NCBI RefSeq assembly: GCF_001854805.1
Contig: NZ_MBLO01000012.1
Coordinates: forward strand, 1-63,460
DNA from: Pseudofrankia coriaricola
Lineage (GTDB): Bacteria; Actinomycetota; Actinomycetes; Frankiales; Frankiaceae
Direction: 5' to 3'
DNA: 63,460 nucleotides
Part shown: positions 6,765-49,483 of the stretch, in pieces
How positions within the stretch are numbered: the stretch's first letter is position 1
Layout: the number at the start of each line of letters is the position of its first letter
Program-made: the position numbers and the translations under genes
The notes under the pieces: generated by a model
Told to the model about the DNA's origin: nothing
The model's database searches: none
The model's input: the letters and a program-made list of their open reading frames with translations, nothing else

Positions 6765-7712
6765 TCAGGCGCCGGGGTGGGCACTGGTCCCGGCGTCGCC
6801 CGCGGCGTCGGGAGCGGCGTCGACGACGAAGGTGGCGGTGTGGACCTGCCCGTCGACCTGGAAGTCGAGGTAGAGCAGGTAGCGGCCCGCGGTGGGCACG
6901 TCGGCCATGAAGCCGATCTTCGGACCTGACAGGTCGCCCTCGGCCGGTTCCTCGCCCTCGGGGTGGACGTGCAGGTAGGCCAAGTCCCCTGCGCGCAGCG
7001 CGACCAGGTGGCCAAAGGCGCCGAGATAGGGCTGCAGGGTGGTGACCGGCTTGCCGTCGTGGGTGATCTCGACGGTCAGGCCGGACATCGTGCCGGCGTG
7101 CAGGTCGCCATGCAGGGCCACCGTGAACCCGTCGACCTGCGCGGTGGTCGAGGTGTGGGTGGCCGGAGCCGGGACGAAGTCCCCAGCGACGCCGATTGTG
7201 CGGGTGAGGGTCACATCAGGGGCCCCGGACGCGTCCCGGCCGGCGGGCACGAAGTCCGCGAACACCCGGTAGGTGCCGGCAGCGGTCCATGTCCACGGGA
7301 TCGACCAGGTCCCGTCGGAGCCCAGTGCCGGGTGGACGTGACGGAACTGGGTGCCGTCCGATCGCACCACGATGAAGTGGAGATCCCTGTCGTGCGACGG
7401 CGTGTACGCCGTCAGCGGGTCGCCGTCGCCGTCGCGCACCTGGAACGACAGGACACCGGCCTTCCCGACCACGTCGGGCGCGGCCACGTCGCCGAGCAGG
7501 TATCCGTCCTGCTCGAGCGAGAGCCCGCGGACTGACCCGGTCCCGGCCGAGGCCTGCGTCGTCGAGGTGTGGTCCATCGAGTTCTCCTGCGCCGTCTTCG
7601 TCCACGAGGCGACCGTCGAGTCAGGGATAACGGCCGAACCGGCGACGAAGGCGCCGCCGAACAGGACCGCCAGACCGGCGGCGTAGACGCCGAGCCGGGT
7701 CGGGACGTTCAT
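6765..7712 (-). CDS. Membrane-anchored extracytoplasmic protein of copper operon
   Basis: This 315-residue protein has one N-terminal hydrophobic segment (residues about 9-31) that acts as an uncleaved anchor or signal peptide. The rest is extracytoplasmic. Two beta-rich repeats share a pattern in which aromatic strands lead to HVHP: TQFRHVHPAL near residue 130 and DLAYLHVHPEG near 245. Each could place His residues for metal binding. It lies between copZ and copA, its ATG sharing one base with the copZ TGA. A role in binding or delivering copper outside the membrane is inferred from position and His content. I do not recognise a named family with certainty. Confidence 0.75.
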   Translation of the reverse strand: MNVPTRLGVYAAGLAVLFGGAFVAGSAVIPDSTVASWTKTAQENSMDHTSTTQASAGTGSVRGLSLEQDGYLLGDVAAPDVVGKAGVLSFQVRDGDGDPLTAYTPSHDRDLHFIVVRSDGTQFRHVHPALGSDGTWSIPWTWTAAGTYRVFADFVPAGRDASGAPDVTLTRTIGVAGDFVPAPATHTSTTAQVDGFTVALHGDLHAGTMSGLTVEITHDGKPVTTLQPYLGAFGHLVALRAGDLAYLHVHPEGEEPAEGDLSGPKIGFMADVPTAGRYLLYLDFQVDGQVHTATFVVDAAPDAAGDAGTSAHPGA

Positions 7713-7921
7713 CAGACCCGGACCGCCTCGTAACCGGCCTCGCCCACCGCGGCCAGCACCCGCGCGTCGTCCACCGGCTCGGTCACGGTCACGACAAGGC
7801 GGCCGGTCTGCGCGCTTACCTGGATGTCGTCAACACCGGTGATCTTGCCGACCTCGTCTCGAACCGCGGCCTCGCAGTGCCCGCAGCTCATGCCCGTCAC
7901 CTGGTACTCACTCGTGGTCAT
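7712..7921 (-). CDS. copZ: CopZ-like HMA copper chaperone
   Basis: This is a stand-alone heavy-metal-associated domain of 69 residues. The metal site is GMSCGHCEAA (CxxC), followed by the usual beta-alpha-beta-beta-alpha-beta pattern ending in GEAGYEAV. I chose the ATG preceding TTSEYQVTG at 7921, because a GGGAGCGGG ribosome site precedes it; an upstream ATG would add 11 residues that cross into the operator region. It should carry Cu(I) to CopA, encoded two genes downstream. It is first in the operon and sits just below two CsoR-like palindromes. Confidence 0.9.
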   Translation of the reverse strand: MTTSEYQVTGMSCGHCEAAVRDEVGKITGVDDIQVSAQTGRLVVTVTEPVDDARVLAAVGEAGYEAVRV

Positions 7922-7943
7922 CGCGCCCGCTCCCTCCCGAGTC

Positions 7944-7964
7944 AGATACCCCATCCGGGTATCT
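7944..7964. promoter_or_regulatory. CsoR-like operator 1 (perfect 8-bp inverted repeat)
   Basis: AGATACCC and GGGTATCT flank a 5-base spacer as a perfect inverted repeat. The core TACCC-N5-GGGTA is the arrangement known for CsoR copper-sensing repressor sites in actinobacteria. It lies 23 bases upstream of the copZ start, and 200 bases upstream of the divergent DUF305 gene. No csoR gene occurs in the window, so a repressor would act in trans. Confidence 0.75.
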
Positions 7965-7978
7965 CCAGGTCATGTTTA

Positions 7979-7993
7979 TACCCCCTAGGGGTA
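7979..7993. promoter_or_regulatory. CsoR-like operator 2 (TACCC-N5-GGGTA)
   Basis: TACCCCCTAGGGGTA is a second palindrome with the same TACCC-N5-GGGTA core. Its centre is 32 bases (about three helical turns) from operator 1, suitable for binding two tetramers on one face of the DNA. It sits between copZ and the divergent short DUF305 gene and could control both. Confidence 0.75.
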
Positions 7994-8165
7994 CCCGTCA
8001 ATGCGGGTTGGAGCGAGCGGGGAGACAGGCAGGCGACAGCCCCAGCGGTCGCGCGGGGATTCCGGAGCCCGGAGGCCTGACGGTCGGGGCGGCAACGCGC
8101 AGACGCGGCGAACACCGTCGATCCCCTGGGGGATGGACGGGATGCATACGGGAGGCGAGTCCACC

Positions 8166-8492
8166 ATGCCCATGACTACCGGGATGCCGATGAGCGGCGG
8201 CATGAACATGAGTGGCATGCCGATGGCGACCACGACGCCGACGGCGAGTGGCCCATCGATGGACGGGATGATGAGCGCCCAGGACATGGCGAAGTTGGCC
8301 GCCGCGTCCGGGCGGGACTTCGACCGGATGTTCCTGACGATGATGACTGCCCACCACAACGGTGCGGTGGCGATGGCGACCACTGAGGAGCGCGACGGCC
8401 GGTACGGCCCCGCCAGGCAGCTCGCCACCAGCATCAGGACCAGCCAGACCGCCGAAATCACGGAGATGAACGGACTGCTGGCGAAGATCTGA
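8166..8492 (+). CDS. Short DUF305 protein (C-terminal half only), Met-rich start
   Basis: This 108-residue protein starts at the ATG at 8166, which follows GGGAGG by eight bases. The first 30 residues are unusually Met-rich (MPMTTGMPMSGGMNMSGMPM). The remainder aligns with only the second half of the full DUF305 lipoprotein at 24843-25472, sharing AASGRDFDRMFLTMM, the HH-x-G-A motif (AHHNGAVAMA) and TSQTAEIT. No signal peptide or lipobox is visible, whereas the full-length paralogue has both. It may be a cytoplasmic copper-binding derivative or a decaying copy. It is divergent from the copper operon, with the CsoR-like sites between. Confidence 0.75.
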   Translation: MPMTTGMPMSGGMNMSGMPMATTTPTASGPSMDGMMSAQDMAKLAAASGRDFDRMFLTMMTAHHNGAVAMATTEERDGRYGPARQLATSIRTSQTAEITEMNGLLAKI

Positions 8493-8568
8493 GCTGTAGG
8501 CCGTCTGGCTTGCCTGGTGACTTGGCCGGCAACGCCGAGCGCGTCTGAGCTACTACCCGTAGCCGGCG

Positions 8569-8594
8569 GTGGGCGGTCCCCTGGGACCGCCCAC
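8569..8594. terminator. Hairpin, 12-bp perfect stem
   Basis: GTGGGCGGTCCC and GGGACCGCCCAC pair perfectly around a 2-base loop. The hairpin lies between the convergent ends of the DUF305 gene (stop 8492) and the large kinase fusion (stop 8749), so it can serve as a bidirectional terminator. It has no U-tract, as is usual in high-GC actinobacteria. Confidence 0.7.
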
Positions 8595-8748
8595 TGAGCC
8601 TTTCCCCGGGATCCGTGCAAAGCGGATGCCGGCCAGGCGGGCGTGTGGCCCCCGGCTCGCGCTGTCATATCGGGATGTCGAGGAGCTACCGGCCGGGTTC
8701 GGGCCGTGCCGGGTGGGAATGGGCAGCGATCCGCTCACGGCGGTCCGG

Positions 8749-11700
8749 TCATCGGCCCTTCCGGGGGGACGACCCGCGGCGCAGGACGGGCCACGTCGCC
8801 CACGCGACGGCCGTGGTCAGCAGCAGGAGCGCGGCGAGGTCGAGCGCCCAGGTGCCGGCGTCGGCCGTCCACAGCGGATCAAGCTCGGGGTCGGTCGGCG
8901 TCTGGTGGTAGCCGGTGGTCGCCGCGACCATCGCGAACCCCCACCGGGCCGGCATGAGGTATGCGAGCTGTTCCAGTGGTGGGCGACCGTCCAGTGGGAT
9001 GAGCAGCCCGCACAGCAGGAACTGCAGCAGCAGGACGACCACGAGAATGGGCATGCCGCGGTCGGCGTTCGCGATCAGAGCAGAGACCAGCAGTCCCTGG
9101 GCCATCGCGGCCAGCGCGACCGCGATCATGGCGACGGCGACCTCAGTCAGCCCGCTGCCCAGCACGAGCGGCGTGTCCGGGGCGGGTTGGCCGTACAGTC
9201 CGGCGACGGCAAGGATCACGGCCTGCGCACTGGTGATCGCGCCCAGTACGGCGAGTTTCGACCAGAGGTAGGCGCCGCGCGAGAGCCCGATCGCCTGCTC
9301 CCGGCGGAAGATGGAGCGTTCCTTGACCAGTTCGCGGAACGCTCCGGCGAACCCCGTGAACGCACATCCGAGGACGAGCACGAGCATGAGCGGCGCGATG
9401 TCGCTGTCGCTGTCGCGATCGGCCTGCGTGCCCATCCACGAAAGCCCGTGCTTGCCCGGCAGCAGTTGCGCGAAAAGGCTCAGTACCAGCGGCAGCGCCA
9501 GCAGGAACAGCGTGTAGGCCCGATCGGCCGCGATCACCGCGAGGTAGCGGCGGGCAAGCACGGCGAACTGGCGCAGCGCCGGTTGCTGTCGCGGCGGCGC
9601 GTCCGGCGCCGCCCGCGGCGCGGGCGTGGCGGGCTGCGCGACGCCGTTCGGCATCCCGTACTTCGCGAACTGCGGCGAGGCCCGGAACCGGGCCGTCCAG
9701 TCGACGTCCCTGGAGCGGTCGAGCAGCAGGAACATGTCCGCGAAGTCACGCTGGCCGAAGTAGGCGAGCGCCTCGCCTGGCGGGCCGAAGTAGGCGAGCC
9801 GGCCGCCCGACGCGAGCACGAGCAGCCGGTCGCAGAGATCGAGCTGCGCGGGAGAGTGCGTGACGACGACTACTGTTCGGCCGTCGTCGGCCAGCTTGCG
9901 CAGAGTCTGCATCACCGACTTGTCCATGCCCGGGTCCAGCCCGGACGTCGGCTCGTCGAGGAAGAGCAGGGACGGGCGGGTGAGCAGTTCCAGCGCGACG
10001 CTCGTGCGCTTGCGCTGCCCGCCGGAGAGAGTGGTGATCCGCTGACCGGCCTGGTCGGCCAGTCCCAGCTCGCCGATCACCTCCTCGACTCGCGCGTTGC
10101 GCTCGGCCGCCGGAGTGTCGGCGGGGAACCGCAGCGCGGCCGCGTACCGCAGGGCCCGGCGGACTGTCAGCTGCGGGTGCAGGATGTCGTCCTGGGGGAC
10201 GAGCCCGATGCGCTGGCGCAGCTCGTCATAGGACGCGTAGAGGTCGCGGCCGGCGTAGCGGACCTCGCCGGAGTCCGCCGGACGCTGCCCGGTCAGCGCG
10301 CCGAGCAGTGTGGACTTCCCGGCACCGCTCGGCCCGACGACGGCCAGCAGGCTGCGCTGCGGCAGCGCGAACCCGACCCCGTCGAGCAGCCGCCGTCCGG
10401 AGCGGGTGACGACCAGGTCGTCGGCCTCGAACGAGATGTCGCCCGAGTCGGTGTACTCGACGAGGGTGCCGCCCTGCAGGTGCAGCAGGGCGTGCCCGAT
10501 GCCGACGATGTCCCCGGCCCCGATCGTCGCCTGGTCGACCCGGTGGCCGTTGACGAACGTCCCGTTCCAGCCGCCGAGGTCGACGATCCGCCAGTCGGGC
10601 CCGACCCGGCGCAGCTCCGCGTGCCGGCGCGAGACGAGCGGGTCGGCGAGCACCACGTCGCACTCGGGCGCGCGGCCGATGACGACCGACGCCGCCCCGA
10701 CCGGATGCAGCGCTGTGGCCTTGCGCTCCCACCATGTCCCACTCGAGACCGGCCTGGCAGGTCCGGCGCCCGGTACCTGGACCGTGGGCGGCAGCGTGGC
10801 CGGTGCCGGCTGGGTCATCTGGTAACGCCTGGTGGCGAGGAGGGGCGCGGGCGCGGTCGGCGGATCGGGCTGCGCCGGCGGGTTGGGCTGTGGCGGCGGA
10901 GAGCCCGCCCCCTTCCACCAACCAGGTCCAGGCGCGGCTGACGATGACGCCCGTGCCTGGGGCGGCGGTGAAGGTGACGGAGACGACGATGGAGCCGGCG
11001 GTGGCGGCGGAGACGGAGATGGCGGTGCCGGCGGCGGTGGTGATGCGGGCGGGGTGGCGGGTGCGGGCGCGGGAGCGGTCGGTGGATCGGGCTGCGTCGG
11101 CGGGTCGGGTCGCGGCGGCGGAGAGCTCGCCCCCTTCCACCAGCCAGGTCCAGGCCCGACCGGCGTCGGCGTCGGTGAGGGAGATGCCGGCGGCGGTGAC
11201 GGTGGCGCGGGCGGGGTGGCGGGTGCGGGCGCGGGTGCGGGCGCGGTTGGCGGATCGGGCTGCGTCGGCGGGTCGGGTCGCGGCGGCGGAGAGCTCGCCC
11301 CCTTCCACCAGCCAGGTCCAGGCGCGGCCGGCGGCGGCGCCGGCGCCGGCGGCGGCGGCGGCGATGGTGATGGTGATGACGCGGGCGGAGCGGCGGATGC
11401 GGGCTTCGCCGCGGGGGCGCCGTTCGCCCGCGTCCACCATTTGCCACCCGCGGGCGGGGCGGCGGGAGGCGGGACCGGCGTCGCCGGGGTGGGCGGCGTG
11501 AGGGTCGCGAGGGCCTCGCGGGCCGCCTCCGCGAACGCGGACGCCGACGGATGCCGGTCGCTCGGAGCCTTCGCCAGACCCCGCACGATGACGTCGTCGA
11601 ACACCGTCGGTGCCCCGGGCCGCGCGGCCGACAGGACGGGTGGCGGGTCCTGTATGTGCGCCATGATGACCGCGAGCCGTTCGGCGGTGACGAACGGCCT

Positions 11701-12324
11701 GCGCCCGGACAGGCACTCGAAGAGCAGGCAGGCCAGCGAGTAGACGTCCGCCCGCTGGTCGACCCGCCCGGACTGGAAACGCTCGGGCGCCATGTACTCC
11801 ACCGAGCCGACCGCCACTCCGGTCGTGGTGATCCCGGTACCGTCGACCGAGCGGGCGATCCCGAAGTCCACGAGGTAGACGAAGTCGGTCGGACGGCCGC
11901 GGCCCGCGCACAGCACGTTGGACGGTTTGACGTCACGGTGCACCAGCCCGTCGGCGTGCGCGGCGTCCAGCGCGGAGGCGACCTGCCCGACGACGTCGAC
12001 GGCCGTCCACGGGTCGAGCGGGCCGTCGCGCAGGACCGTGCCCAGGTGGGCGCCCTCCACCAGGCGCATGTCGATGAAGAGCTGGCCGTCGATCTCGCCG
12101 TGACGGTGGATCGGGATCACGTGCGGTTCCCGCAGCTGCGCCACGATCTCGGACTCCCGGCGGAACCGCTCGGCGAACTGCGGGTCCCCGGCCAGGCCCG
12201 GGAGCAGGACCTTGAGCGCGACCATCCGCTGCTGCCCGGTGTCGTAGGCGCGGTAGACCTCGCCCATCCCACCGCGGCCCAGCAGCGCCTCGATGCGGTA
12301 CGGGCCGAACATCCGCTGTGTCAT
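8749..12324 (-). CDS. Ser/Thr kinase - FHA - ABC exporter fusion
   Basis: This 1191-residue protein combines three modules. Residues 1-275 form a Hanks-type kinase (GRGGMGEVY glycine loop, VALKVL lysine, HRDVKPSN catalytic loop, VDFGIA, APE-like MAPERF). Residues 280-525 are a Pro-rich linker with five Trp-Trp motifs. Residues about 530-625 form an FHA phosphothreonine-binding domain (VIGRAPECDVVL, SRRHAEL, NGTFVNG). Residues 630-910 are an ABCG-type ATPase (GPSGAGKST, LSGGQRKRTSV, LLFLDEPTSGLDPG). The C-terminal 270 residues hold about six membrane helices. The ATG at 12324 overlaps the upstream kinase stop by four bases and opens directly into the kinase fold. By inference, the kinase may phosphorylate a linker that the FHA domain reads to gate the exporter. 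It is the last gene of the TerY-P-like operon. Confidence 0.9.
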   Translation of the reverse strand: MTQRMFGPYRIEALLGRGGMGEVYRAYDTGQQRMVALKVLLPGLAGDPQFAERFRRESEIVAQLREPHVIPIHRHGEIDGQLFIDMRLVEGAHLGTVLRDGPLDPWTAVDVVGQVASALDAAHADGLVHRDVKPSNVLCAGRGRPTDFVYLVDFGIARSVDGTGITTTGVAVGSVEYMAPERFQSGRVDQRADVYSLACLLFECLSGRRPFVTAERLAVIMAHIQDPPPVLSAARPGAPTVFDDVIVRGLAKAPSDRHPSASAFAEAAREALATLTPPTPATPVPPPAAPPAGGKWWTRANGAPAAKPASAAPPASSPSPSPPPPPAPAPPPAAPGPGWWKGASSPPPRPDPPTQPDPPTAPAPAPAPATPPAPPSPPPASPSPTPTPVGPGPGWWKGASSPPPRPDPPTQPDPPTAPAPAPATPPASPPPPAPPSPSPPPPPAPSSSPSPSPPPQARASSSAAPGPGWWKGAGSPPPQPNPPAQPDPPTAPAPLLATRRYQMTQPAPATLPPTVQVPGAGPARPVSSGTWWERKATALHPVGAASVVIGRAPECDVVLADPLVSRRHAELRRVGPDWRIVDLGGWNGTFVNGHRVDQATIGAGDIVGIGHALLHLQGGTLVEYTDSGDISFEADDLVVTRSGRRLLDGVGFALPQRSLLAVVGPSGAGKSTLLGALTGQRPADSGEVRYAGRDLYASYDELRQRIGLVPQDDILHPQLTVRRALRYAAALRFPADTPAAERNARVEEVIGELGLADQAGQRITTLSGGQRKRTSVALELLTRPSLLFLDEPTSGLDPGMDKSVMQTLRKLADDGRTVVVVTHSPAQLDLCDRLLVLASGGRLAYFGPPGEALAYFGQRDFADMFLLLDRSRDVDWTARFRASPQFAKYGMPNGVAQPATPAPRAAPDAPPRQQPALRQFAVLARRYLAVIAADRAYTLFLLALPLVLSLFAQLLPGKHGLSWMGTQADRDSDSDIAPLMLVLVLGCAFTGFAGAFRELVKERSIFRREQAIGLSRGAYLWSKLAVLGAITSAQAVILAVAGLYGQPAPDTPLVLGSGLTEVAVAMIAVALAAMAQGLLVSALIANADRGMPILVVVLLLQFLLCGLLIPLDGRPPLEQLAYLMPARWGFAMVAATTGYHQTPTDPELDPLWTADAGTWALDLAALLLLTTAVAWATWPVLRRGSSPRKGR
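10862..11323 (-). repeat. Three 72-bp coding repeats in kinase-FHA linker
   Basis: Copies lie at 10862-10933, 11084-11155 and 11252-11323. The last two are identical over 72 bases and the first is diverged at several positions. Each encodes a PGPGWWKGA(S/G)SPPP unit followed by (R/Q)P(D/N)PP(T/A)QPDPP. Spacing is 222 and 168 bases, all multiples of three, so the number of linker units can change without breaking the frame. Confidence 0.9.
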
Positions 12325-13691
12325 CGCGCCTTCCCCGGTGGTTGTCGCCGCCATCTCCGGATCATGAGGACGAGCACGATCAGCGCCAGCACGAGGGCGA
12401 GAAGCACGGCGATGACGGAGCCGTCGGCGGAGGGCAGGCCGGCGAGGCCGACGAGTACGCCCCTGATCAGGGCGGCACCGACGATCCAGACCAGCAACGC
12501 CGCGACCGTGGCGGACAGGGTTCGGCCCACAGTGCGCGCCAGCCGCCTGCCGCCGCCTGCCCGCGCCGGGGCCCGCGCCGGGGCCCGCGCCGGTCCGGGC
12601 TGCGTCGGGACCGGCCGCGGCCCGGACTGCTGCCACCACCCGGACTGCCCCGTCGGCTGGGGATCGGGCTGGGGACGGGGCCATGGCGGTGTGGAAGCGG
12701 TCGGCGTGCCGGCCGGCGAGGGGGCGGTGGTGGGCTCGGGAGCGATCGGCGCGCCGACCGTCGGGCGCGCGGCGGTGCGCGTCCACCAGGGAACGGGCCC
12801 CGTGATCAGCCCTTCCAGGTCGCCGGTGGCCGTCCAGCTCGGCGCGCAGCAGGCCCGCAGCCGGGCCGCGAGCTGATCGATCTGTGGGTCGCGCAACCGC
12901 TCGACCCACGACCACGCCTCGGTCCGATGCGGCGGCAGGTAGTCCTTGTGACCGAAGAGCAGGTTCTCGCCGTCGTTGAGCTGCTCCCACTGCCCCGGCT
13001 CGTGGGCGAGCGCCAGCAGCGAGAGGTAGATGACGAGCCCGGGGAAGGTGTCCATCCACGGGCCCCAGGGCCGGTTCTCGGGCTGGTAGTTGCGGTGCCC
13101 GCCCTCCGTCGGCGGCGGGAAGCCGGTGAACGGGACGATCCACGAGCTGTCGAAGTCGACCAGGCGCATACGGCCGGTCGCGTCGACGAGGACGTTGCCG
13201 TGCTGCAGGTCGCCGTGCGCGAATCGGGCGGCCTGCATCCGGCGCAGCAGGTCGCGCCACGAGTCGGCGAGCGTGCCCAGCGCCACGCGGTCGCCGGTCT
13301 CGACGAGATCCTCGACGTGCCGGTCGAGTGGGTGCCCCTCCACCCATTCCATCTGAACCATCGGCCAGCGCCGCCCGTTGACCAGGATCGCGTCGTCCAC
13401 CCACCGACAGCTGGCGACGTCGTCGGTGAGGCCGCGTTCACTGAACCAGGTGTTAAGCGCGGTGTAGCGCTGCTGCGTGGAGGCGTCCTCGCGGGTGAAG
13501 AACCGCAGCGCCTGGGCGGTACCGCCGACCGTTGCCCTGAACACGACCGCGGTGCTGCCCGACGCCGGGACGGGGATGCCCATCATCGGGTGCACGTCGA
13601 AGCGGGCCTCGGTCAGCTCTGGCCGGTCGAACACGAGGTCGGGCCGCTGCACGGCCTTGATGTAGTCCTCGGCGGAAGGATGGCCGGTCAC
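12321..13691 (-). CDS. TerY-P-type protein kinase with C-terminal membrane helices
   Basis: This 456-residue protein starts at GTG 13691, overlapping the phosphatase stop by four bases (GTGA). Residues about 30-260 form a divergent kinase fold. The ATP region is GSTAVVFRA, the catalytic loop is HGDLQHGN (near residue 154) and the metal-binding motif is VDFDSS in place of DFG. This resembles kinases that accompany TerY-type vWA and PP2C proteins. A Pro-rich linker (285-375) contains two Trp-Trp motifs (PWWTRTAA, SGWWQQSG). Two hydrophobic helices (about 395-445) end in a basic tail, anchoring it in the membrane. Its stop overlaps the start of the kinase-FHA-ABC gene. Confidence 0.85.
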   Translation of the reverse strand: MTGHPSAEDYIKAVQRPDLVFDRPELTEARFDVHPMMGIPVPASGSTAVVFRATVGGTAQALRFFTREDASTQQRYTALNTWFSERGLTDDVASCRWVDDAILVNGRRWPMVQMEWVEGHPLDRHVEDLVETGDRVALGTLADSWRDLLRRMQAARFAHGDLQHGNVLVDATGRMRLVDFDSSWIVPFTGFPPPTEGGHRNYQPENRPWGPWMDTFPGLVIYLSLLALAHEPGQWEQLNDGENLLFGHKDYLPPHRTEAWSWVERLRDPQIDQLAARLRACCAPSWTATGDLEGLITGPVPWWTRTAARPTVGAPIAPEPTTAPSPAGTPTASTPPWPRPQPDPQPTGQSGWWQQSGPRPVPTQPGPARAPARAPARAGGGRRLARTVGRTLSATVAALLVWIVGAALIRGVLVGLAGLPSADGSVIAVLLALVLALIVLVLMIRRWRRQPPGKAR

Positions 13692-14482
13692 AAGGACACC
13701 ACCAGGGCGCCGGGCTCGGCCGTGACGAGGCGGACACGCAGCAGCGTGACGTCGTCGTTGTGCATCCGCCCGGCCGCGCGCTGGTCGGCGACGATCGCCG
13801 CGAACGCCGCGTCGTGGTCCAGGCCGGCGAGTGCCGCCCACAGCGACGCCTCGTCGCGCGCGGCCTCCAGCAGCAGCCAGTGGGCCAGCGCGTCGGTGGC
13901 GATGAAGAGCACGTCGCCCGCGCGGACCTCGCCGCTGGCCAGCTCCAGACCGCGCAGCATCGGGCCGAGCGCCGCCGGGCGGGTGCCGATCCCGTCGGGC
14001 GACAGGCCGAAGCCGTCCACGCCGATCGGCGGAAAGTGCAGGAGCAGCCGGCCGGCCCGGACGTGGAACAGCACGGTGTCGCCGAGTGCGGCGGCCTCCC
14101 AGCGGGCATGGGGACCGTCGAGGCCGGTGAGGCGGCACCCCAGGAACGTCGCGAACGACCCCTCGGCATGGAACTTGTGCTCCTCGATGACCGTCGCGAA
14201 CCGTGCGGGTGCCTCGGCGGCCCACAGCCGCTGGACCTGTTCGAACCAGGTGCGCAGCCCGGTCGGAGTGAGGTCGGGCCCGGTGTCGGCGACGAACGAG
14301 CCGGCGAGGTGCTCCACCCAGCGGATCGCGTCGTAGGCCTCGGTGGCGCCGTCCACGACCACGTACCGGGGCGCGACGCCGGCGGCCGGGTCGCCGTCGT
14401 GGTAGGCGGCGGCGTCCTCCCATTCCGTTGCCACGCTGCCCAGCTTCTCCAGCCAGAAACAGACGGAGCGGGCGAGAATCAT
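13688..14482 (-). CDS. PP2C-like protein phosphatase of TerY-P triad
   Basis: This 264-residue protein has PP2C landmarks. An early acidic motif is VVVDGATEAYDA (canonical VxDGxGG region), the middle has DVLFIATDALAHWLL (canonical TDGV/L) and a late motif is NDDVTLLRVR (canonical DNxT). It should remove phosphate from Ser/Thr of partner proteins, most plausibly substrates of the kinases encoded on either side. The ATG at 14482 (MILARSVCFWLEKLG) is chosen because upstream sequence in the frame lacks family character. Eleven bases separate it from the vWA stop. The vWA / PP2C / kinase order is the TerY-P triad known from comparative genomics. Confidence 0.85.
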   Translation of the reverse strand: MILARSVCFWLEKLGSVATEWEDAAAYHDGDPAAGVAPRYVVVDGATEAYDAIRWVEHLAGSFVADTGPDLTPTGLRTWFEQVQRLWAAEAPARFATVIEEHKFHAEGSFATFLGCRLTGLDGPHARWEAAALGDTVLFHVRAGRLLLHFPPIGVDGFGLSPDGIGTRPAALGPMLRGLELASGEVRAGDVLFIATDALAHWLLLEAARDEASLWAALAGLDHDAAFAAIVADQRAAGRMHNDDVTLLRVRLVTAEPGALVVSL

Positions 14483-14493
14483 CAGCGGTGTCC

Positions 14494-15336
14494 TCACCGG
14501 TCCCGGACGTCGGCTACCCGCGTGCCGATCTCCAGGAACCACATGAGCGTCGCCAGGCCGGCGTTGAACACGAACCCGCGACCGCCGTCGGCGATCTCCA
14601 TCCGTGCGCCGCGCGCGTTCGCGATCATCGATGCCGGCAGCGCGCTGGAGATCGCGAACAGCTCCGGGCCTGGTTCGGGCAGCCCGGCGGCGGTGGCCGG
14701 GAACAGCACCTCGGGCGCGACTGTCGGCGACAGGAAGATGTTGAACAGCAGCGCCTGGCCGTCGCGGGTCTCGATCGAGGTCAGCCGGGCGGCCCACTCG
14801 GAGAGGTCCGCGCCGTCATAGGGGCTGTCGGTGACCATCCCGTCGGTGATGTTGATGACGATCGGCGGGAACGAGTCGGGGTGGCTCGCCGCCCACCCGA
14901 ACACGTGCTCGCCCGCCGTCGCGATGGCCTGGCACATCGGGGTGCGGTAGCCGAACACCGGCTCGACCCAGACCGGGAGCCGGGAGCCGGCGACGGCGTC
15001 GACCGACGGGTCGGTCTCGACCCGCAGCGGGCTGTCGAACACCTGCGGGATCGGCACGATCGGCTGCCCGCCCAGCGCCGGCTCGACGCCTTCGCCGCCC
15101 GCCACCGGGCAGGCGCCATAGCCGAACACCCCGACGTCGAAATAGTGCCGGGCCTGGCCGCCGACCTCTTTCGCCGACTTCACGCACAGATCAAGCAGGA
15201 TCTTGTTCACGGCCCGGGTCGCACCCTCAGCGAGGGTGCCCCCGCTGGACTGCCACGGCTGCTTCATCGAGTCAGACCGGTCCAGCAGGAACACGATGCA
15301 GCCGGGGTTGGTACGGGAGAAGGTCCGCTCGTACAT
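14494..15336 (-). CDS. terY: TerY-type von Willebrand factor A domain protein
   Basis: This 280-residue single-domain vWA protein has a complete MIDAS: FLLDRSDSM gives DxSxS near residues 18-24, with the later Thr in YRTPMCQA and Asp in NITDGMVTDSP. Metal-dependent ligand binding is therefore likely. The length and the MIDAS-containing Rossmann-like fold match TerY proteins, which act as phosphoprotein-binding scaffolds in Ter and TerY-P systems. I start at the ATG at 15336 (MYERTFSRTNPG). It follows the zinc-ribbon gene by 34 bases and precedes the phosphatase by 11. It probably presents targets to the kinase/phosphatase pair. Confidence 0.85.
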   Translation of the reverse strand: MYERTFSRTNPGCIVFLLDRSDSMKQPWQSSGGTLAEGATRAVNKILLDLCVKSAKEVGGQARHYFDVGVFGYGACPVAGGEGVEPALGGQPIVPIPQVFDSPLRVETDPSVDAVAGSRLPVWVEPVFGYRTPMCQAIATAGEHVFGWAASHPDSFPPIVINITDGMVTDSPYDGADLSEWAARLTSIETRDGQALLFNIFLSPTVAPEVLFPATAAGLPEPGPELFAISSALPASMIANARGARMEIADGGRGFVFNAGLATLMWFLEIGTRVADVRDR

Positions 15337-15370
15337 GCGTCCATCCGTCCTGGTCAGCGCAGTCCTGGGT

Positions 15371-16042
15371 TCAGGTGGCATGCCGTCGGCGACTCGCGAC
15401 GACGGTGACCGGCCAGGCGGTGCCGGGCCGCCAGGTCCACTCGTGGCCGTCGACGCGGCAGCGGAACGCGTAGCCAGTATCGAGGTGCCGGACGTCGATG
15501 CGGAACGCACCGCAGCGCGGACACTGCACGACGCGGGCGGAGTCGCGCAGCGCCGCGAGATCGCGGGGAGCCGGGCGGACCGGTTCGGTCGGGCGGGCGT
15601 CCGCGGCGGGCGCCGGGGACGCCCTGTTCCACCACTGGCCCGCCTGCGGGGTGCCGCCCGCCGCCCGCCCGACCGGTAGCACGAGCTGCGCGCTTTCCAG
15701 CCCGGCGCCGTCGGAGGCCGGCCCGGACCATCGGCTGTCCGGTCCCGGCGGCCGTTCACGGGCCGGTCCCGGCGGCCGCCCGCCGGCCGGCTCCGGTGGT
15801 CGCCCGCCGGCCGGCTCCGGCGGCCCTTCGCGGACGGGTAGCGGCCGCGCCAGCAGAGCCGCGACCAGCCAACCCACGGCGACGGCCACGAGGATCACGG
15901 CGATCGTCTTCCCGGGCGGCCGATCCTGGAACAGCAGGGCCCAGCCGAGCAGGGCCGCGGCCAGCGCCGTGACCGCGAGCAGCAGGTTTGGAACCCGACC
16001 CGCTCTCCCCGTCGCCGTGCGCTCCTCGGCTCTCGCTGTCAC
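15371..16042 (-). CDS. Two-helix membrane protein with C-terminal zinc ribbon
   Basis: This 223-residue protein has two hydrophobic helices at residues about 20-38 and 45-65. A Pro/Gly-rich linker follows, containing repeated EPAGGRPP units and one Trp-Trp motif (GQWWNRASPAPA). A C-terminal zinc-ribbon-like module has VVQCPRCGAF, then FRCRVDGHEW, so three Cys plus a His could bind Zn. Zinc-ribbon or treble-clef partners are known beside TerY-type vWA genes. It may be a membrane-tethered substrate or adaptor for the triad. Its ATG overlaps the upstream gene's stop by four bases. Confidence 0.75.
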   Translation of the reverse strand: MTARAEERTATGRAGRVPNLLLAVTALAAALLGWALLFQDRPPGKTIAVILVAVAVGWLVAALLARPLPVREGPPEPAGGRPPEPAGGRPPGPARERPPGPDSRWSGPASDGAGLESAQLVLPVGRAAGGTPQAGQWWNRASPAPAADARPTEPVRPAPRDLAALRDSARVVQCPRCGAFRIDVRHLDTGYAFRCRVDGHEWTWRPGTAWPVTVVASRRRHAT

Positions 16043-16719
16043 GATGCCTCCACACGGAACAGCACATCGGCGGCCGGATTAGTGACCGCCTGGCATTGCT
16101 GACCGTCCTTTTCCGCGTCGGCCTTCGAATCGACGAACTGCCAACCGGTCGGCAGGTCCAGACAGACCTCGGCGTTCAGCGGCAGCTCGGAAGGCGTGAA
16201 CCGCCCGGTCTCGTCGAGAACCCCGCTCTTCGGCGTGCCCTCGGCATAACGGATGGTGACCTTGCCCCCGCTCGGGACCTGGTCGCCGCCGCCCGTCCTC
16301 TGCGCGATCACCTGAACCCGCTCGACATCCAGCTCGGTCGCCTTGTCGGCGGACAACGACTCCCGCCCGCACGCCGACGGCGGCTTCGACCCGGCCAGGC
16401 GCACCGGGCCGGCCGCCGAGACCACGCACACCTCGTGGTCGCCGGGAGCGACGTCCGCGGACCACGTGCCCTTCGCGTCGGTCGAGCCCGCGGCCAGCAC
16501 CGTCGCACCGTCGCGGACCTGGACGGTCAGGCCGGTCAGGAGCCGGGCATCCGCCGCCGACACGGTGACAGTGACCTTCACCGCCGGGCCGGGATCCGAC
16601 TCCCGCGGCGCCACGACAAGGCTCGATAGCGCGACGGCACCGAACGCGATCGCCGCCGCGTACCCGGGTGCCAGCACCGGGTGCCGCCACAGCGGCCTAC
16701 GGCGCTCTGTCAGACGCAT
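16039..16719 (-). CDS. Membrane-anchored protein with two Ig/carboxypeptidase-regulatory-like domains
   Basis: This 226-residue protein has a basic N-terminus (MRLTERRRPLWRH), one membrane helix (residues about 17-38) and an extracytoplasmic region with two beta-sandwich-like repeats. Motifs such as VQVRDGATVLAAG, DAKGTWSADVAPGDHEVC and VLDETGRFTPSELPLNAEVC resemble carboxypeptidase regulatory/SdrD-type domains that carry paired Cys. I start at ATG 16719, because the longer frame adds 50 residues of Arg-rich, unconserved sequence. It is the first gene of the six-gene operon and may be its external sensor. The function is inferred only from architecture and position. Confidence 0.65.
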   Translation of the reverse strand: MRLTERRRPLWRHPVLAPGYAAAIAFGAVALSSLVVAPRESDPGPAVKVTVTVSAADARLLTGLTVQVRDGATVLAAGSTDAKGTWSADVAPGDHEVCVVSAAGPVRLAGSKPPSACGRESLSADKATELDVERVQVIAQRTGGGDQVPSGGKVTIRYAEGTPKSGVLDETGRFTPSELPLNAEVCLDLPTGWQFVDSKADAEKDGQQCQAVTNPAADVLFRVEAS

Positions 16720-16907
16720 GTGAACGCGGCGCCGACACTCGCCGAGCCGGCGCACCCGCACGCGAGCACGCTCAGTACAGCCTTCATGGGAAGGAGTCTC
16801 GGGCCCGTCGGGGCGGGACACATCAGTGCCAACACCGGCTTGCGGGACGGGTTTTCCCAGTGCTGGCACCGAGGTTTGGGCCGAACGCCGGTGCTAGCGT
16901 CCGGAAG

Positions 16908-17291
16908 ATGGACCGGGTGGCGGTCGGCCGCGTCTTCATCGTCGATGACAGCGCACCGTTCCGTGCTGTCGCCCGCGAGCTCCTGGAAGGCGGCGGCTAC
17001 CAGGTGGTCGGCGACGCCGCTACCGGGGCCGGGGCACTGGCCGCCGTGCCCGCGGCCGGCCCCGACATTGTTCTGCTCGACATCGCGCTGCCCGACATGG
17101 ACGGGTTCAGCGTCTGCCGGGCGCTACGCCGCTCGGCCCCCGCCGTCACGGTCGTGTTCTGCTCGGTCCGCGACGCCGAGCACTACGGTGACGCGATCGA
17201 GCAGTCGTCCGCCGCGGGGTTCCTCCCCAAGTCGGCGCTGTCGGCGGCCGCGCTGGCGCTGATCATGGCACGGCGCGCCGAGCGCAGGTAG
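16908..17291 (+). CDS. Stand-alone receiver (single-domain response regulator)
   Basis: This 127-residue CheY-like protein has acidic residues in FIVDDSAP, phospho-Asp in IVLLDIALPDMDG (about residue 54), a switch Ser in VVFCSVRD and Lys in FLPKSALS. It has no output domain, so it relays phosphate or acts by protein contact. It is divergent from the TerY-P-like operon (188-bp gap). Its last 109 bases overlap in antisense the 3' end of the LuxR regulator on the other strand, which could couple the two mRNAs. The start ATG at 16908 follows GGAAG closely. Confidence 0.85.
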   Translation: MDRVAVGRVFIVDDSAPFRAVARELLEGGGYQVVGDAATGAGALAAVPAAGPDIVLLDIALPDMDGFSVCRALRRSAPAVTVVFCSVRDAEHYGDAIEQSSAAGFLPKSALSAAALALIMARRAERR

Positions 17292-17974
17292 GCGAGTACC
17301 GCGAGGACGCGGCGATTGTGCTCGGCCTCGTCGGCCAGCGCGAGCCGCTGGAAGACGCTGCGGACATGCGTCTCAACAGTGCGCGTCGTGAGGTGCAGCT
17401 CGTCGGCGATCCCGTTGTTGGACCGGCCCTGTGCCATCAGGGCGAGGACCTGCCGCTCCCGTGAGCTGAGCTCGGCCAGCTCGTCGCGCCGCCCCGTGCC
17501 GCCGCCGAGCCGGCCGCCGGCGAGCATCCGGACGACCTCGGGGTCGAACGCGCAGCCATCGGCGGCCACCCGGCGCACGGCGTCCAGGAAGTCGGGCCCG
17601 GTGACCCGATCCTTGAGGAGGTAGCCCACACCGCTCGCGGTCTGCCCGACCAGCTCGTCGAGGTGCGCGACCTCCAGATGCTGGGACAGGAGAAGCACGC
17701 CCGTCCCGGGATGGCGCCGCCGCAGCAGCACGGCCGCGCGCAGACCTTCCAGGCGGTGGGTGGGCGGCATCCGGATGTCGACGACCGCGAGGTCCGGACG
17801 GTGCCGCTCGACGGCGTCGAGCAGCTCGTCCGCGTTCCCAGCCTGCGCGACGATCGCGCACCCGTCACGTTCCAACAGCTCGGCGAGCGCCGACCGGAAG
17901 AGCGACGCGTCGTCGGCGAGGACGACACGCGTCACCGTCGCGGCCGGGTCGGGCGCGGTGGTGACGGTGGTCAC
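17183..17974 (-). CDS. NarL/LuxR-type response regulator
   Basis: This 263-residue regulator has a receiver at residues about 15-130 (VVLADDASLFRSAL, phospho-Asp in DLAVVDIRMPP, Lys in YLLKDRVTG) and a LuxR-type HTH at about 165-225 (SSRERQVLALMAQGRSN). An extra 35-residue tail, rich in Ala/Ser/Asp, runs antisense through the end of the lone receiver gene. Its ATG overlaps the stop of the kinase gene upstream by four bases, so the two form a cognate pair. Position suggests that it controls the adjacent TerY-P-like operon, but that is inference. Confidence 0.9.
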   Translation of the reverse strand: MTTVTTAPDPAATVTRVVLADDASLFRSALAELLERDGCAIVAQAGNADELLDAVERHRPDLAVVDIRMPPTHRLEGLRAAVLLRRRHPGTGVLLLSQHLEVAHLDELVGQTASGVGYLLKDRVTGPDFLDAVRRVAADGCAFDPEVVRMLAGGRLGGGTGRRDELAELSSRERQVLALMAQGRSNNGIADELHLTTRTVETHVRSVFQRLALADEAEHNRRVLAVLAYLRSARRAMISASAAADSADLGRNPAADDCSIASP

Positions 17975-19911
17975 GGCCCCTCCAGGGGTAGCTCGGCGTG
18001 GACGGAGGTCCCGGCACCGGGAAAACTGCGCACGACCAGCTTGCCGTCGAGCGCGGCGACCCGGTCGCGCAGCCCGAGCAGGCCCGTCCCCGCGCCCATG
18101 TCGGCGCCGCCGACGCCGTCATCGGCGACAGTGACGAGCAGCCGGTTCCCGGACGCCCGGACGTGGACCTGGACCTGGTTGGCGCAGGCGTGCTTCGCCG
18201 CGTTCGTCACGGCCTCGGCCGCGACGAAGTAAGCCGTCGCGGCCACCCCGTCCGCCAACGGCGGCAACGCGGGTCCGTCGACGACCTGCACCGGGTACGC
18301 CGAGCGGGCGGCGAGCGCCCGCAGCGCGGGCAACAGCCCGGCCTCCGTGAGCACCGCAGGGTGGATGCCGCGGGCGAGTTCGCGCAGCTCCGCCACCGCC
18401 CCCGCCAGCCCGTCAGCGGCCCGCCGCAGGAGCGCGTCTATCTCGGGGTCGGGCTGCGCAGGACCGAGCCGGTCGCGTGCCAGCCGCAGGACCAGCGCGG
18501 CCGTGACGAGCTGTTGCTGAGCACCGTCGTGCAGATCGCGTTCGATCCGCCGGCGCTGCTCGTCGGCCGCCGCGACGATGCGGACCCGGGACGCCCGGGC
18601 CTCGGCAAGCTGAGCCCGCACCTCCGCGGCGAGTCGCTGGTTGTCCAGCTCCAGTGCCGCGACCGCCGTCACCGCGTGCAGAACATGCGGGTCGGCGCGC
18701 AGCGCCGGGTCGTGCAGGAGCACGGCGACGACGCGCGGGCCGCGCCGGACCGGAGTGATCGCGTCGTCCGGGCGGGGCGTGACGAGCTGCCCGGCGGCGT
18801 CCATGTACCCGGTGGTGGAACCGGCCTCGTCCGGGCGAGGGTAGGCGATGCGCAGCGCGGGGTCGCCGAGCGCGCGGGCCAACAGGTCAGGCAGGTCGGC
18901 CGGCGATATCCGCGGCAGCTGGAGCAGGAGATCCGCGACGGCCGTGCGGCCGAGCCGGACGCGCAGCGCGCCGGCCAGGAACGCCACGGGGAGCCCGAGC
19001 GTGGCGAGGTGAGCGACCTCGTTGACCAGCAGCGCGCTCGAGTCGGGCAGCGCCGGGTGGAGCAGCGACGCGACGCTCCCGACGAGCCCGACGCCGTACA
19101 CCGGCGCGAGCACCCGGCGGGCCGGCGGGGTGGCAACGAACCAGCGCCGGACCAGCAGGCCGCCGACGATCATGGCGAACACCACCTGCACGCCGTCGAT
19201 CAGCATGTCCTGCAGGTCGGCCAGGTCGGCGACAAGCAGCAGGTTGGGCGTCATTGACTCGTAGAACGGCACGCCCAGCGGCACGACGACAAGCACGAAC
19301 ACATACACGGCGCCGGTCACCACTCGCTCGGTGCGCGCCCGCAGCCGCCCGTCCGGGAAGGCCAGCAGGACGTGCACCAGACACGCCGAGGCCACGCACC
19401 GGACGAGCATCCCGACGGTATGCGGCACCGGATCGATCGAGACCCACAGGTCCTCGGCGAACCAGGCGATGCCGACCGTCACCATCCGCAGCCCGAGCCG
19501 ACCCGGCCGGCGTAGGTGCGTGACGGAGCCGGTCAGCAGGTAGAGCCCGCCGACGATGCCGGAGAACAGGGTGCTGGTCGTGTCCGGGGTCCGGCCAGAG
19601 TCGGCCAGCCAGAGGACCACCGCGCCAAAGGCCACGCCCGCCACGGCGAGCGCCGGGACGCCGTAGCGGCTGCGCGGTCCGCTCCCCAGCCTGGCTGTGA
19701 ACGCCGCGGGATCGCCCGCTGTGAACGCCGCGGGATCGCCCGCTGTGAACGCCGCGGGATCGCTCGCTATGAACGCCGCGGGATCGCCCGGGGGCGCCGC
19801 CTCGGGGACGGCGTCGATCGCGATGGCGCCGAGCCCGCCTTTCACGGCCGCCGCCCCGGGACGAGTCGCCCACCCGCATGATCCCGCACGGCGCGCTCCT
19901 CCCTGGACCAT
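17971..19911 (-). CDS. Membrane histidine kinase (HisKA_3) with octapeptide repeats
   Basis: This 646-residue sensor kinase has an N-terminal 45-75 region of four GDPAAFTA-type octapeptides (24-bp DNA repeats). About eight membrane helices follow (residues 80-310), then a GAF-like or linker segment to about 430. The HisKA_3 domain contains EQRRRIERDLHDGAQQQL, and the HATPase_c domain has NAAKHA and GTGLLGLRDRVAALDGK. All kinase motifs are intact. The stop overlaps the LuxR regulator start. The ATG at 19911 has only a weak RBS, so the start is uncertain and an internal GTG before the repeats is possible. Confidence 0.85.
   Translation of the reverse strand: MVQGGARRAGSCGWATRPGAAAVKGGLGAIAIDAVPEAAPPGDPAAFIASDPAAFTAGDPAAFTAGDPAAFTARLGSGPRSRYGVPALAVAGVAFGAVVLWLADSGRTPDTTSTLFSGIVGGLYLLTGSVTHLRRPGRLGLRMVTVGIAWFAEDLWVSIDPVPHTVGMLVRCVASACLVHVLLAFPDGRLRARTERVVTGAVYVFVLVVVPLGVPFYESMTPNLLLVADLADLQDMLIDGVQVVFAMIVGGLLVRRWFVATPPARRVLAPVYGVGLVGSVASLLHPALPDSSALLVNEVAHLATLGLPVAFLAGALRVRLGRTAVADLLLQLPRISPADLPDLLARALGDPALRIAYPRPDEAGSTTGYMDAAGQLVTPRPDDAITPVRRGPRVVAVLLHDPALRADPHVLHAVTAVAALELDNQRLAAEVRAQLAEARASRVRIVAAADEQRRRIERDLHDGAQQQLVTAALVLRLARDRLGPAQPDPEIDALLRRAADGLAGAVAELRELARGIHPAVLTEAGLLPALRALAARSAYPVQVVDGPALPPLADGVAATAYFVAAEAVTNAAKHACANQVQVHVRASGNRLLVTVADDGVGGADMGAGTGLLGLRDRVAALDGKLVVRSFPGAGTSVHAELPLEGP
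19697..19792. repeat. 24-bp tandem repeat, four copies, in kinase gene
   Basis: Four head-to-tail copies lie at 19697, 19721, 19745 and 19769. The first two are identical, the third differs at one base and the fourth at three. The unit encodes eight residues (GDPAAFTA) in the cytoplasmic N-terminus of the histidine kinase, so copy-number change keeps the frame. Confidence 0.95.
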
Positions 19912-48327: not shown

Positions 48328-49483
48328 CGCCCACCTCTCTCCCCTAACGGACGCCGGCCACGCGACGGCCCAGAATGACAATCCCGTGCGGGCAGAATGC
48401 TACCGTCTGGCGATTTCCACCAATGGGCGGGAAACCAGGCCGGCGTAGTCGTGGCCGCGACAGCGGCGTAGGAAGGCCCGTCGGCGACGATCCGCGGGCG
48501 GTGCCGGCCGACGCTCCCGCGCCAGCCCGCGCCTGGCAGGCGGCACGATCCGTCCGCCAACCCGTGACACCGCGGGGCGGCACGAGCGGCCGCCGGCATC
48601 CGGGTAGCGCAGAATGTCCATTTTTTGACAGAACGTCTACCGTGACGTCGCGGTTTGCCCGCGCTCGGCGGTCCGATGGGCGGCGGGAAGGCCTCCGTCC
48701 GAGATCTCGGCGCCAGCCCACGCGGGGCGTCCCGGGTCCCGCCGGATCGGCGATGCCCGGGGCTCCTGCCGGAGGCCCGCGATTGCCGGGAGGCCAGCGA
48801 TCCGCCGCTCGCCGCCCGAGTGGCGGAGTGGCGGAGCCTACGGATCGGCACCTTGCCGGGCACCGGCGCGGATCAGCACCGCACAGCGGTCGGCCCCGCG
48901 CGGCGGCGGTCGGCGGTCGGGCGGCCGCGACCACGCGCTTGCACGAGAGCCAAAGGCCCCCACCGATCCGCCGCTCGGCCACCTGGCGACACCGAACCCG
49001 TGGGCCTGTGCCCGCGGGGCAAGGGCAGACCGGTGGGGGAAGGCTGGACCGCCGGCCGCTATCCCGAACTGACGCCCCCCGCGTGCCGGTTCTGGGTGAC
49101 GGTCCAGCCAGTACCAGCACACCGCATCCCGGCCGCGCGGACCTCGTATCTTTACGGGTTTCCGAGTATTCCTCGAAAGGTTGGCCTGACGGCCGCTCTC
49201 ACCGGCCTCCGGCGTGCGTGCCCCGGCGCCGCGCGGCGCGGCCCGACGCGCTGGCCGGGGGTTTCCCATCCCACCGCTGGTGACGTGCTCCGTACGGTGG
49301 CGTGCCGCGGCCCGCTCGCGTGGCGCCACAATACGTGTTTGCACAGCGCGAAGAAACAGCCTCGGGCCGTGCCGGAGCCCGTGGACCGTCCTTTGTGCCG
49401 CGGGTGGGTCCCTTGACCGGCCTTTGTCGCCCACGTAGCGTCCGCTGCCAATCCCAAGTCCACGGCGCGGAAAGGCATATGCC
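48328..49483. other. 1.16-kb region without a gene I can support
   Basis: This lies between the divergent kinase and cupin genes. Several Arg/Pro-rich frames are open on both strands but lack codon-bias agreement, ribosome sites or family character. A T-run followed by TTGACA occurs at 48621-48630, without a clear -10. It may hold a decayed gene, an RNA or only long promoters. Confidence 0.4.

Follow-up and report, generated by a model that had tools for sequence, protein, structure and literature searches.

The window analysed here is a stretch of 63,460 nucleotides from Pseudofrankia coriaricola (contig NZ_MBLO01000012.1, designated C12, of a genome of 11.2 Mb in 280 contigs, designated G000). 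At 8749-16719 it contains a conserved unit of six genes, g1 to g6, which encode an anchored Ig-like protein, a two-helix zinc-ribbon-like protein, a TerY-like vWA protein, a PP2C-type phosphatase, a TerY-P-type kinase with two membrane helices and a kinase-FHA-ABC exporter fusion (Table 1). The cytosolic linkers of g2, g5 and g6 share a double-tryptophan (WW) motif. From the sequences, the unit may be a TerY-P-like Ser/Thr phospho-switch that is assembled at the membrane and controls an ABC exporter of the cell envelope, with a vWA/PP2C hub docking on the WW motifs as tags; the probability of this reading is put at about 0.45. Below, loci or stretches are numbered with L and genomes with G.

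Conservation of the six-gene unit

Inspection of the open reading frames placed all six genes on the minus strand, with 4-nt overlaps at the junctions 16042/16039, 13691/13688 and 12324/12321 and gaps of 34 nt (g2-g3) and 11 nt (g3-g4), in agreement, also in its outer coordinates, with the operon of tightly spaced or overlapping genes described in the initial annotation. A TerY-like vWA gene is present in 17 of 58 genomes, this one included, and ten of these carry a close form that is 87-100% identical; of 13 distant vWA places 11 were read. All six genes were found in order on one contig in seven loci, namely the window, L030, L031, L032, L036, L037 and Pseudonocardia TRM90224 (L085). In the aligned parts the L085 proteins are identical to those of the window at 31% (g1), 57% (g2), 76% (g3), 70% (g4), 75% (g5) and 71-73% (g6). 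Four further loci (L033, with g6 on another contig, L034, L038 and L087) and the genome G028 are cut by contig ends and consistent with this order; G028 has the histidine kinase, response regulator, receiver, g1 and g2 at one contig end and g6 at another. L035 has g2 to g6 and a short frame which, judged by eye, is a diverged g1. In every clade-1 locus where the contig continues, g5 is followed by g6, and G009 has kept a shortened g6 match alone.

Scanning 84,980 species genomes with two exact g3 peptides gave nine loci (out of 37 stretches), all in Frankiaceae or Pseudonocardia. A TerY match was found in 23 of the 393 genomes of the class sample and in 13 of the 298 genomes of family f17. The recurrence of the gene order in other genomes, with 31-76% protein identity in the most distant one, is more than chance. 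Synteny beyond close relatives had been set beforehand as a check on the annotation, and the order is indeed kept in Pseudonocardia, outside the family.

Parts of the L087 copy (Pseudonocardia sp. CNS-139), two-component genes included, are closer to the window than the TRM90224 copy is: the vWA protein is 88% identical over residues 97-240 in L087 and 76% identical overall in TRM90224. Several reading frames are interrupted in L087. The similarity hints at horizontal transfer.

The double-tryptophan linker motif

The window has eight WW copies in these linkers: one in g2 (residues 137-138), two in g5 (302-303 and 352-353) and five in the Pro-rich linker of g6. The maximum in 20,000 linker shuffles was four, and the count observed in L085 was likewise never reached. 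Linkers from 12 genomes (12 of g2, 11 of g5 and 9 of g6) together hold 65 WW in 4438 residues, and 130 of their 150 tryptophans sit in such pairs. The segment rules were defined by us; the g5 segment runs from the motif and leaves out the last 80 residues, with loss of the second WW of L033, and the L085 g6 segment ran into the FHA domain.

The linkers drift otherwise, but every one of the 12 g2 loci has kept one WW, and L085 has two. In g5 the first WW is found in each of the 12 loci read and the second in all but one of them, and three to five WW are found in g6 in 9 of 9 loci. Flanks in g5 such as PWWTR and xWWQQ are kept as far as Pseudonocardia. Of the aligned linker residues, the window and Pseudonocardia have 39/90, 39/79 and 89/176 in common, and the motif is nevertheless found in both.

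Of the genome's 83 kinase (Pkinase) matches, 29 were sampled; their Pro-rich tails, 3668 residues in all, hold 34 tryptophans, all of them single, and no WW, but three of the 29 kinases have WW elsewhere in the tail. The motif is therefore not a general feature of Pro-rich linkers. One of 48 sampled exporter paralogues has WW (three of the 48 are cut by contig ends, and up to 265 residues before the last FHA domain were read). Within the system WW is absent from the vWA protein (0/10 loci) and g1 (0/8) and occurs once in the PP2C protein (1/10). The counts leave out WW pairs that lie within the kinase fold (type-b kinases and that of L199) or in the g2 membrane region of L034 and L035. Nor is the motif a feature of TerY-P systems at large: it is lacking in the kinases of L046-L049, three family-f18 genomes, two cyanobacterial plasmids and Escherichia coli, and in the linkers of the 11 other f17 loci. 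L209 and L210, both f17 loci, have WW inside the kinase domain and in a hydrophobic stretch, respectively.

The vWA and PP2C proteins are candidate WW readers because they themselves have next to no WW, and either would be the simplest reader because the motif is carried by the three membrane proteins that have cytosolic domains and is retained even without a neighbouring FHA exporter. The idea that WW serves as an FHA ligand only is weakened by genus g176, whose WW cassette has no FHA-ABC match on its one longer contig, so that FHA need not be the WW reader.

A narrow DNA pattern for WW proteins elsewhere in the genome gave 12 matches against 19 in the reversed control, wider forms being left unscanned; the only match in a strongly Pro-rich frame was the operon's own g6. 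Among exporter paralogues, WW was found in 1 of 17 from genomes with type-b TerY-P and in 0 of 31 from elsewhere, which is no clear difference. The one case, L177 (G016), has a WWSEP motif like that of type-b kinases, possibly by chance.

The vWA, phosphatase and kinase triad

The TerY-P triad is reportedly due to Anantharaman 2012 and a defence variant to Gao 2020. The g3 protein matches the PADLOC TerY profile over positions 3-277 of 277 (E 2.1e-54) and the Pfam vWA model weakly (E 0.024). Its metal-ion-dependent adhesion site is intact in the window (D19-S21-S23 in DRSDS, T132 and D165), and it is 86-93% identical to nine Frankiaceae relatives (alignment A1). No membrane helix was seen in g3, and no solved structure was matched by sequence at E 0.1. 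The g4 protein matches the PADLOC PP2C profile (E 8.5e-24) and no Pfam PP2C model. Its motifs VDGATEAY, GDTVLF, ATDAL and NDDVTL, which we take to be PP2C metal-site motifs, are kept with small changes as far as L199. The kinase part of g5 matches PADLOC STK_OB (E 1.3e-37) and kinase-like Pfam models and aligns with other TerY-P kinases. The three profiles together presumably make up the PADLOC TerY-P entry. Like the kinases of L046 and L048, g5 carries HGDLQHGN and an arginine (Arg63) at the beta-3 lysine position, presumably in the roles of these kinase motifs. The triad order of an intact vWA protein, PP2C and kinase given in the initial annotation is thus borne out, and the profiles back its fold assignments.

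The AlphaFold model of g5, of modest confidence (mean predicted local distance difference test score, pLDDT, 63), shows a kinase fold followed by a disordered linker and a pair of long helices (382-416 and 423-448), the C-terminal helices that had been read from the sequence. The best Foldseek matches are PknB/PknA-type kinases, with E about 1e-6 but low TM-scores near 0.3. Beyond residue 300 a variable Pro-rich linker follows in the alignment; in the model this part consists of a disordered stretch and the two helices, with no strands. Four of the six products have membrane helices, so most components are tied to the membrane as had been proposed; g3 and g4 have none.

The proposed TerY-P identity holds for the triad, with its vWA protein, adjoining PP2C and TerY-P-family kinase, and fails for the known subtypes. 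The C-terminus of g5 carries no fused zinc ribbon, the ribbon being on the separate g2 protein, and has no OB fold. The system is therefore not classical TerY-P and fits neither of the subtypes described in PMC11090510 (this and the other cited papers are represented by excerpts). The end of the STK_OB match near position 295 of 562 was rejected as proof of a missing OB fold, as the match ends equally early (<300) in all six other TerY-P kinases compared.

The exporter fusion

The g6 protein combines a Hanks-type kinase (residues 9-220; Pkinase, E 5.2e-39), an FHA domain (547-610; E 5.9e-19), an ABC ATPase (647-794; ABC_tran, E 1.3e-31) and an ABC-2 membrane domain (918-1134; ABC2_membrane, E 2e-20). 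The kinase, FHA and Walker A motifs are kept in the alignment in 9 of 9 loci. FHA, ABC ATPase and ABC-2 membrane domain in one chain are the parts of an Rv1747-type exporter, but g6 has a single FHA domain and a kinase at the place of the first of two. Frankiaceae hold many FHA-ABC paralogues. Of eight that were searched, seven have two FHA matches and one (L183) has one, and none has a kinase; no kinase match was found in the 48 sampled paralogue stretches (23 genomes) either. The g6 protein therefore looks like an Rv1747-type exporter in which a kinase has replaced the first FHA domain.

The membrane-anchored proteins g1 and g2

As modelled, g1 has an N-terminal helix and two beta-sandwich domains that resemble CnaB, carboxypeptidase-regulatory and transthyretin folds; Pfam sees the Ig-like domain below cut-off. 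It is a candidate sensor or envelope contact. The g2 protein has two N-terminal membrane helices, the Pro-rich cytosolic linker and a C-terminal zinc-ribbon-like domain. No Pfam match above cut-off was obtained for it, and it aligns with the ribbon proteins of relatives at hhalign E 8e-14. The ribbon residues are C174, C177, C195, D198 and H200, with D198 at the position of the relatives' fourth cysteine. Aspartate replaces this cysteine in 9 of 9 clade-1 ribbons of alignment A7, where related ribbons have C4 ligands. Residues 174-200 correspond to about 15443-15523 of the window.

Upstream of g1 lies a remnant of 25 codons, g0, of a gene for an anchored extracytoplasmic protein. In L030, L038, L087 and L160 this gene (helix, Gly/Ser stretch and extracytoplasmic domain) is full length directly upstream of g1, and short remnants are also found in L031 and L032.

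Related systems

In Frankia type b (L039-L045) the linker of the kinase carries a WWxEP-like motif, and a vWA protein and PP2C are also present. The kinase has one C-terminal helix where its end was read, and L042-L045 also have a ribbon protein. In L039 a gene at 7598-8746 on the plus strand encodes a protein in which two helices flank an outer region of about 190 residues and the zinc ribbon is cytosolic, as if g1 and g2 were combined in a single protein; no known Pfam domain was found in the outer part. No FHA-ABC match was found in the stretches L039-L049, although two of them, L040 and L042, are short. Genus g176 of family f17 (L198 and L199) has g2 to g5, with WW in both kinases and in g2 of L198. 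In L199 (1-5400) the four-gene cassette stands beside WXG100 genes and an EccC-like FtsK/SpoIIIE ATPase, with no g6 match on its 13-kb contig; the L198 contig ends within g5. The ribbon/vWA/PP2C/kinase cassette thus adjoins two kinds of export genes, the second kind in one locus only. A plasmid search with the L051 vWA protein gave two cyanobacterial loci only.

Compared with the TerY-P triad of PMC11090510 and PMC7699616, the system has the same vWA protein, PP2C, kinase family and triad order, but the kinase has two helices instead of a fused ribbon or OB fold, the ribbon is on a separate two-helix protein and a kinase-FHA-ABC exporter is linked to the triad. In export the system resembles PknF-Rv1747 of Mycobacterium tuberculosis, a Ser/Thr kinase and a chain of FHA and ABCG-type ATPase/membrane domains (PMC3908365, PMC5549992, PMC9312465); here the kinase is fused at the first-FHA place, and a TerY-P triad, a zinc-ribbon protein and the WW motif are added. 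PknF modulates Rv1747 positively (PMC3908365), and PknF and PstP act on Rv1747 condensates, the FHA-linker-FHA region condensing once phosphorylated by PknF (PMC9312465). In Sulfolobus acidocaldarius the zinc-finger/FHA protein ArnA binds the vWA protein ArnB in a phosphorylation-dependent manner (PMC6509490), but that pair is archaeal, controls motility genes and has no exporter. The E. coli YegI-PphC-YegL trio likewise consists of a kinase with hydrophobic stretches, PP2C and a vWA protein, but the C-terminal part of YegI is long and, judged by eye, includes an HhH-like stretch, its sequence has no WW, and the trio has no FHA protein or ABC exporter. The PpkA-PppA-Fha1 system of Pseudomonas aeruginosa has, to our knowledge, no TerY or zinc ribbon. 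Its membrane kinase, phosphatase, vWA and FHA parts gate export, but there the vWA domain is the kinase's own outer domain and the export machine is the H1 type VI secretion system (PMC3224232).

The initial annotation had presented the coupling to an exporter as undescribed. This is overstated, as kinase/FHA coupling to export is in principle not new, given PknF-Rv1747, PpkA-PppA-Fha1 and the association of TerY-P with WXG100-FtsK cited in PMC11090510. In open-licence literature, searched by title, no TerY-P/exporter fusion, detached-ribbon membrane form or WW motif of this kind turned up. The triad itself is known; apparently new are the membrane form with detached ribbon, the kinase-FHA-ABC fusion in the operon and the shared WW motif. 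This motif, the conserved upstream two-component genes and the relation to Rv1747 were absent from the initial annotation.

Interpretation of the system

In the proposed phospho-switch g1, with g2, would report a signal from the envelope or from metal. A soluble hub, formed by the vWA protein or by the phosphatase together with it, would dock on the WW peptides of g2, g5 and g6, so that the phosphatase and the two kinases gather at the exporter. The g6 FHA domain would read phosphothreonines, either in the g6 linker or in partners, and export would thereby be turned on or off, as with PknF on Rv1747, and PP2C would reset the phosphorylation state. These steps of linker phosphorylation, FHA reading and reset would follow PknF-Rv1747-PstP by analogy (PMC3908365, PMC9312465, PMC5549992). 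Expression is most probably controlled by the adjoining genes for the histidine kinase, regulator and receiver. Tentatively, WW may be a docking code of membrane TerY-P systems, in which the vWA/PP2C hub recognises any tagged protein and exporters become clients by acquiring tags. The clients would then be the FHA-ABC exporter here and perhaps type VII secretion in g176, and new ones could be predicted from sequence.

Several observations weigh against the phospho-switch with WW docking. In the g5 model the mean pLDDT is 47 for the block containing the first WW and 30 for that containing the second, so that the motif looks disordered on its own. WW is lacking in g2 of L199, in the Frankia type-b zinc-ribbon proteins read, before the FHA domain in g6 of L085 and in the kinases of L046-L049, the f18 genomes, the cyanobacterial plasmids and E. 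coli, and in the frameshifted L087 no second WW was found in g5. Also, a genome search found no close g6 anywhere in G015, whose vWA contig ends within g5.

The main rival for the motif, which we consider unlikely, is that WW pairs are generic aromatic stickers in disordered Pro-rich linkers, causing clustering or phase separation of the membrane complex with no dedicated reader. The condensation of the Rv1747 region on phosphorylation (PMC9312465), the modelled disorder of the linker and the number of WW, up to five per linker, agree with it, but the pairing is strict, g5 flanks are kept to Pseudonocardia, and the Pro-rich tails of the 29 other kinases have single tryptophans and no WW. An envelope metal or redox stress switch, with the zinc-ribbon protein as metal sensor and the exporter as only one of several targets, is rather improbable. 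TerY-P has been hypothesised to be a metal-sensing switch (PMC11090510), the aspartate of the nine clade-1 ribbons could make metal binding reversible, and the window contains genes for a heavy-metal P-type ATPase and a cupredoxin-domain protein; against this, the P-type ATPase is unmatched in the relatives' stretches, a partial test in which six reach at least 2.6 kb past g6.

The two remaining rivals are given little credence. That the TerY-P module and the exporter are unrelated units, co-transcribed with no functional coupling, agrees with the g2-g5 cassette that lacks g6 on the contig of one g176 genome, but g6 stands next to g5 wherever a clade-1 contig continues, WW is present in 9 of 9 g6 proteins against 1 of 48 sampled paralogues and g6 alone among them has a kinase. 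A phage-defence TerY-P system of the Gao 2020 type, with the exporter or membrane parts as effector, is equally doubtful. The matching PADLOC TerY, PP2C and STK_OB profiles and the patchy distribution (10 of 58 genomes, with the CNS-139 copy partly closer to the window than that of TRM90224) point to it. However, in place of the OB fold of the defence subtype (PMC11090510) g5 shows a disordered linker and two helices, nine neighbouring proteins gave no PADLOC match at E<=1e-10 and the fixed neighbours are sensory genes. The link to phage defence raised in the initial annotation thus found no support here.

The excerpts on TerY-P triads treat their role as a hypothesis and do not say how the vWA protein and phosphatase would find a target. 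A membrane-bound triad beside its likely output, an Rv1747-like exporter that shares a short conserved tag, makes this open question experimentally tractable and bears on how actinobacteria control envelope export.

Neighbouring genes and other features of the window

A histidine kinase, a LuxR-type regulator and an opposite-strand receiver lie upstream of g1 in 8 of 8 Frankiaceae loci with enough flank, and the same genes were seen in Pseudonocardia CNS-139 and at the ends of contigs in G027 and G028; in TRM90224 no match to these genes was found beside the six genes. A close form of the histidine kinase (about 70-91% identical outside the own genome) is present in 11 of 58 genomes, which are the ten with close vWA, this one included, and G028. 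In the other genomes identity to this histidine kinase is at most 54% over most of its length, rising to as much as 65% in shorter stretches. The region between g1 and the receiver showed no clear shared DNA site, and searches for a promoter, terminator or Rfam match were negative. The gene next to the P-type ATPase is, like the ATPase, unmatched in the relatives' stretches.

Table 1. The six genes, the upstream remnant and the conserved neighbours in the window
Feature	Position	Strand	Length or evidence
g6, kinase-FHA-ABC exporter fusion	8749..12324	-	1191 aa; Pfam and alignment
g5, TerY-P-type atypical kinase, Pro-rich linker, two C-terminal membrane helices	12321..13691	-	456 aa
g4, PP2C-type phosphatase	13688..14482	-	264 aa; PADLOC PP2C
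g3, TerY-like vWA protein	14494..15336	-	280 aa; PADLOC TerY, alignment A1
g2, two-helix zinc-ribbon-like protein	15371..16042	-	223 aa; alignments A2/A7
g1, Ig-like, N-terminal membrane helix and two tandem extracytoplasmic beta-sandwich domains (prealbumin/Ig-like)	16039..16719	-	226 aa
g0, remnant of anchored extracytoplasmic protein gene	16710..16787	-	25 codons; comparison of reading frames
Stand-alone CheY-like receiver, divergent from g1	16908..17291	+	Response_reg E 9.6e-22; same place in relatives
LuxR-type response regulator	17183..17974	-	Response_reg E 4.4e-16, GerE E 3e-16
Sensor histidine kinase (true start probably further downstream)	17971..19911	-	HisKA_3 E 4.2e-10, HATPase_c E 9.7e-10

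The window also encodes a second exporter, with two FHA domains in the Rv1747 layout, at 51404-53971 on the minus strand, and a kinase with beta-propeller-like repeats at 46150-48381 on the same strand.

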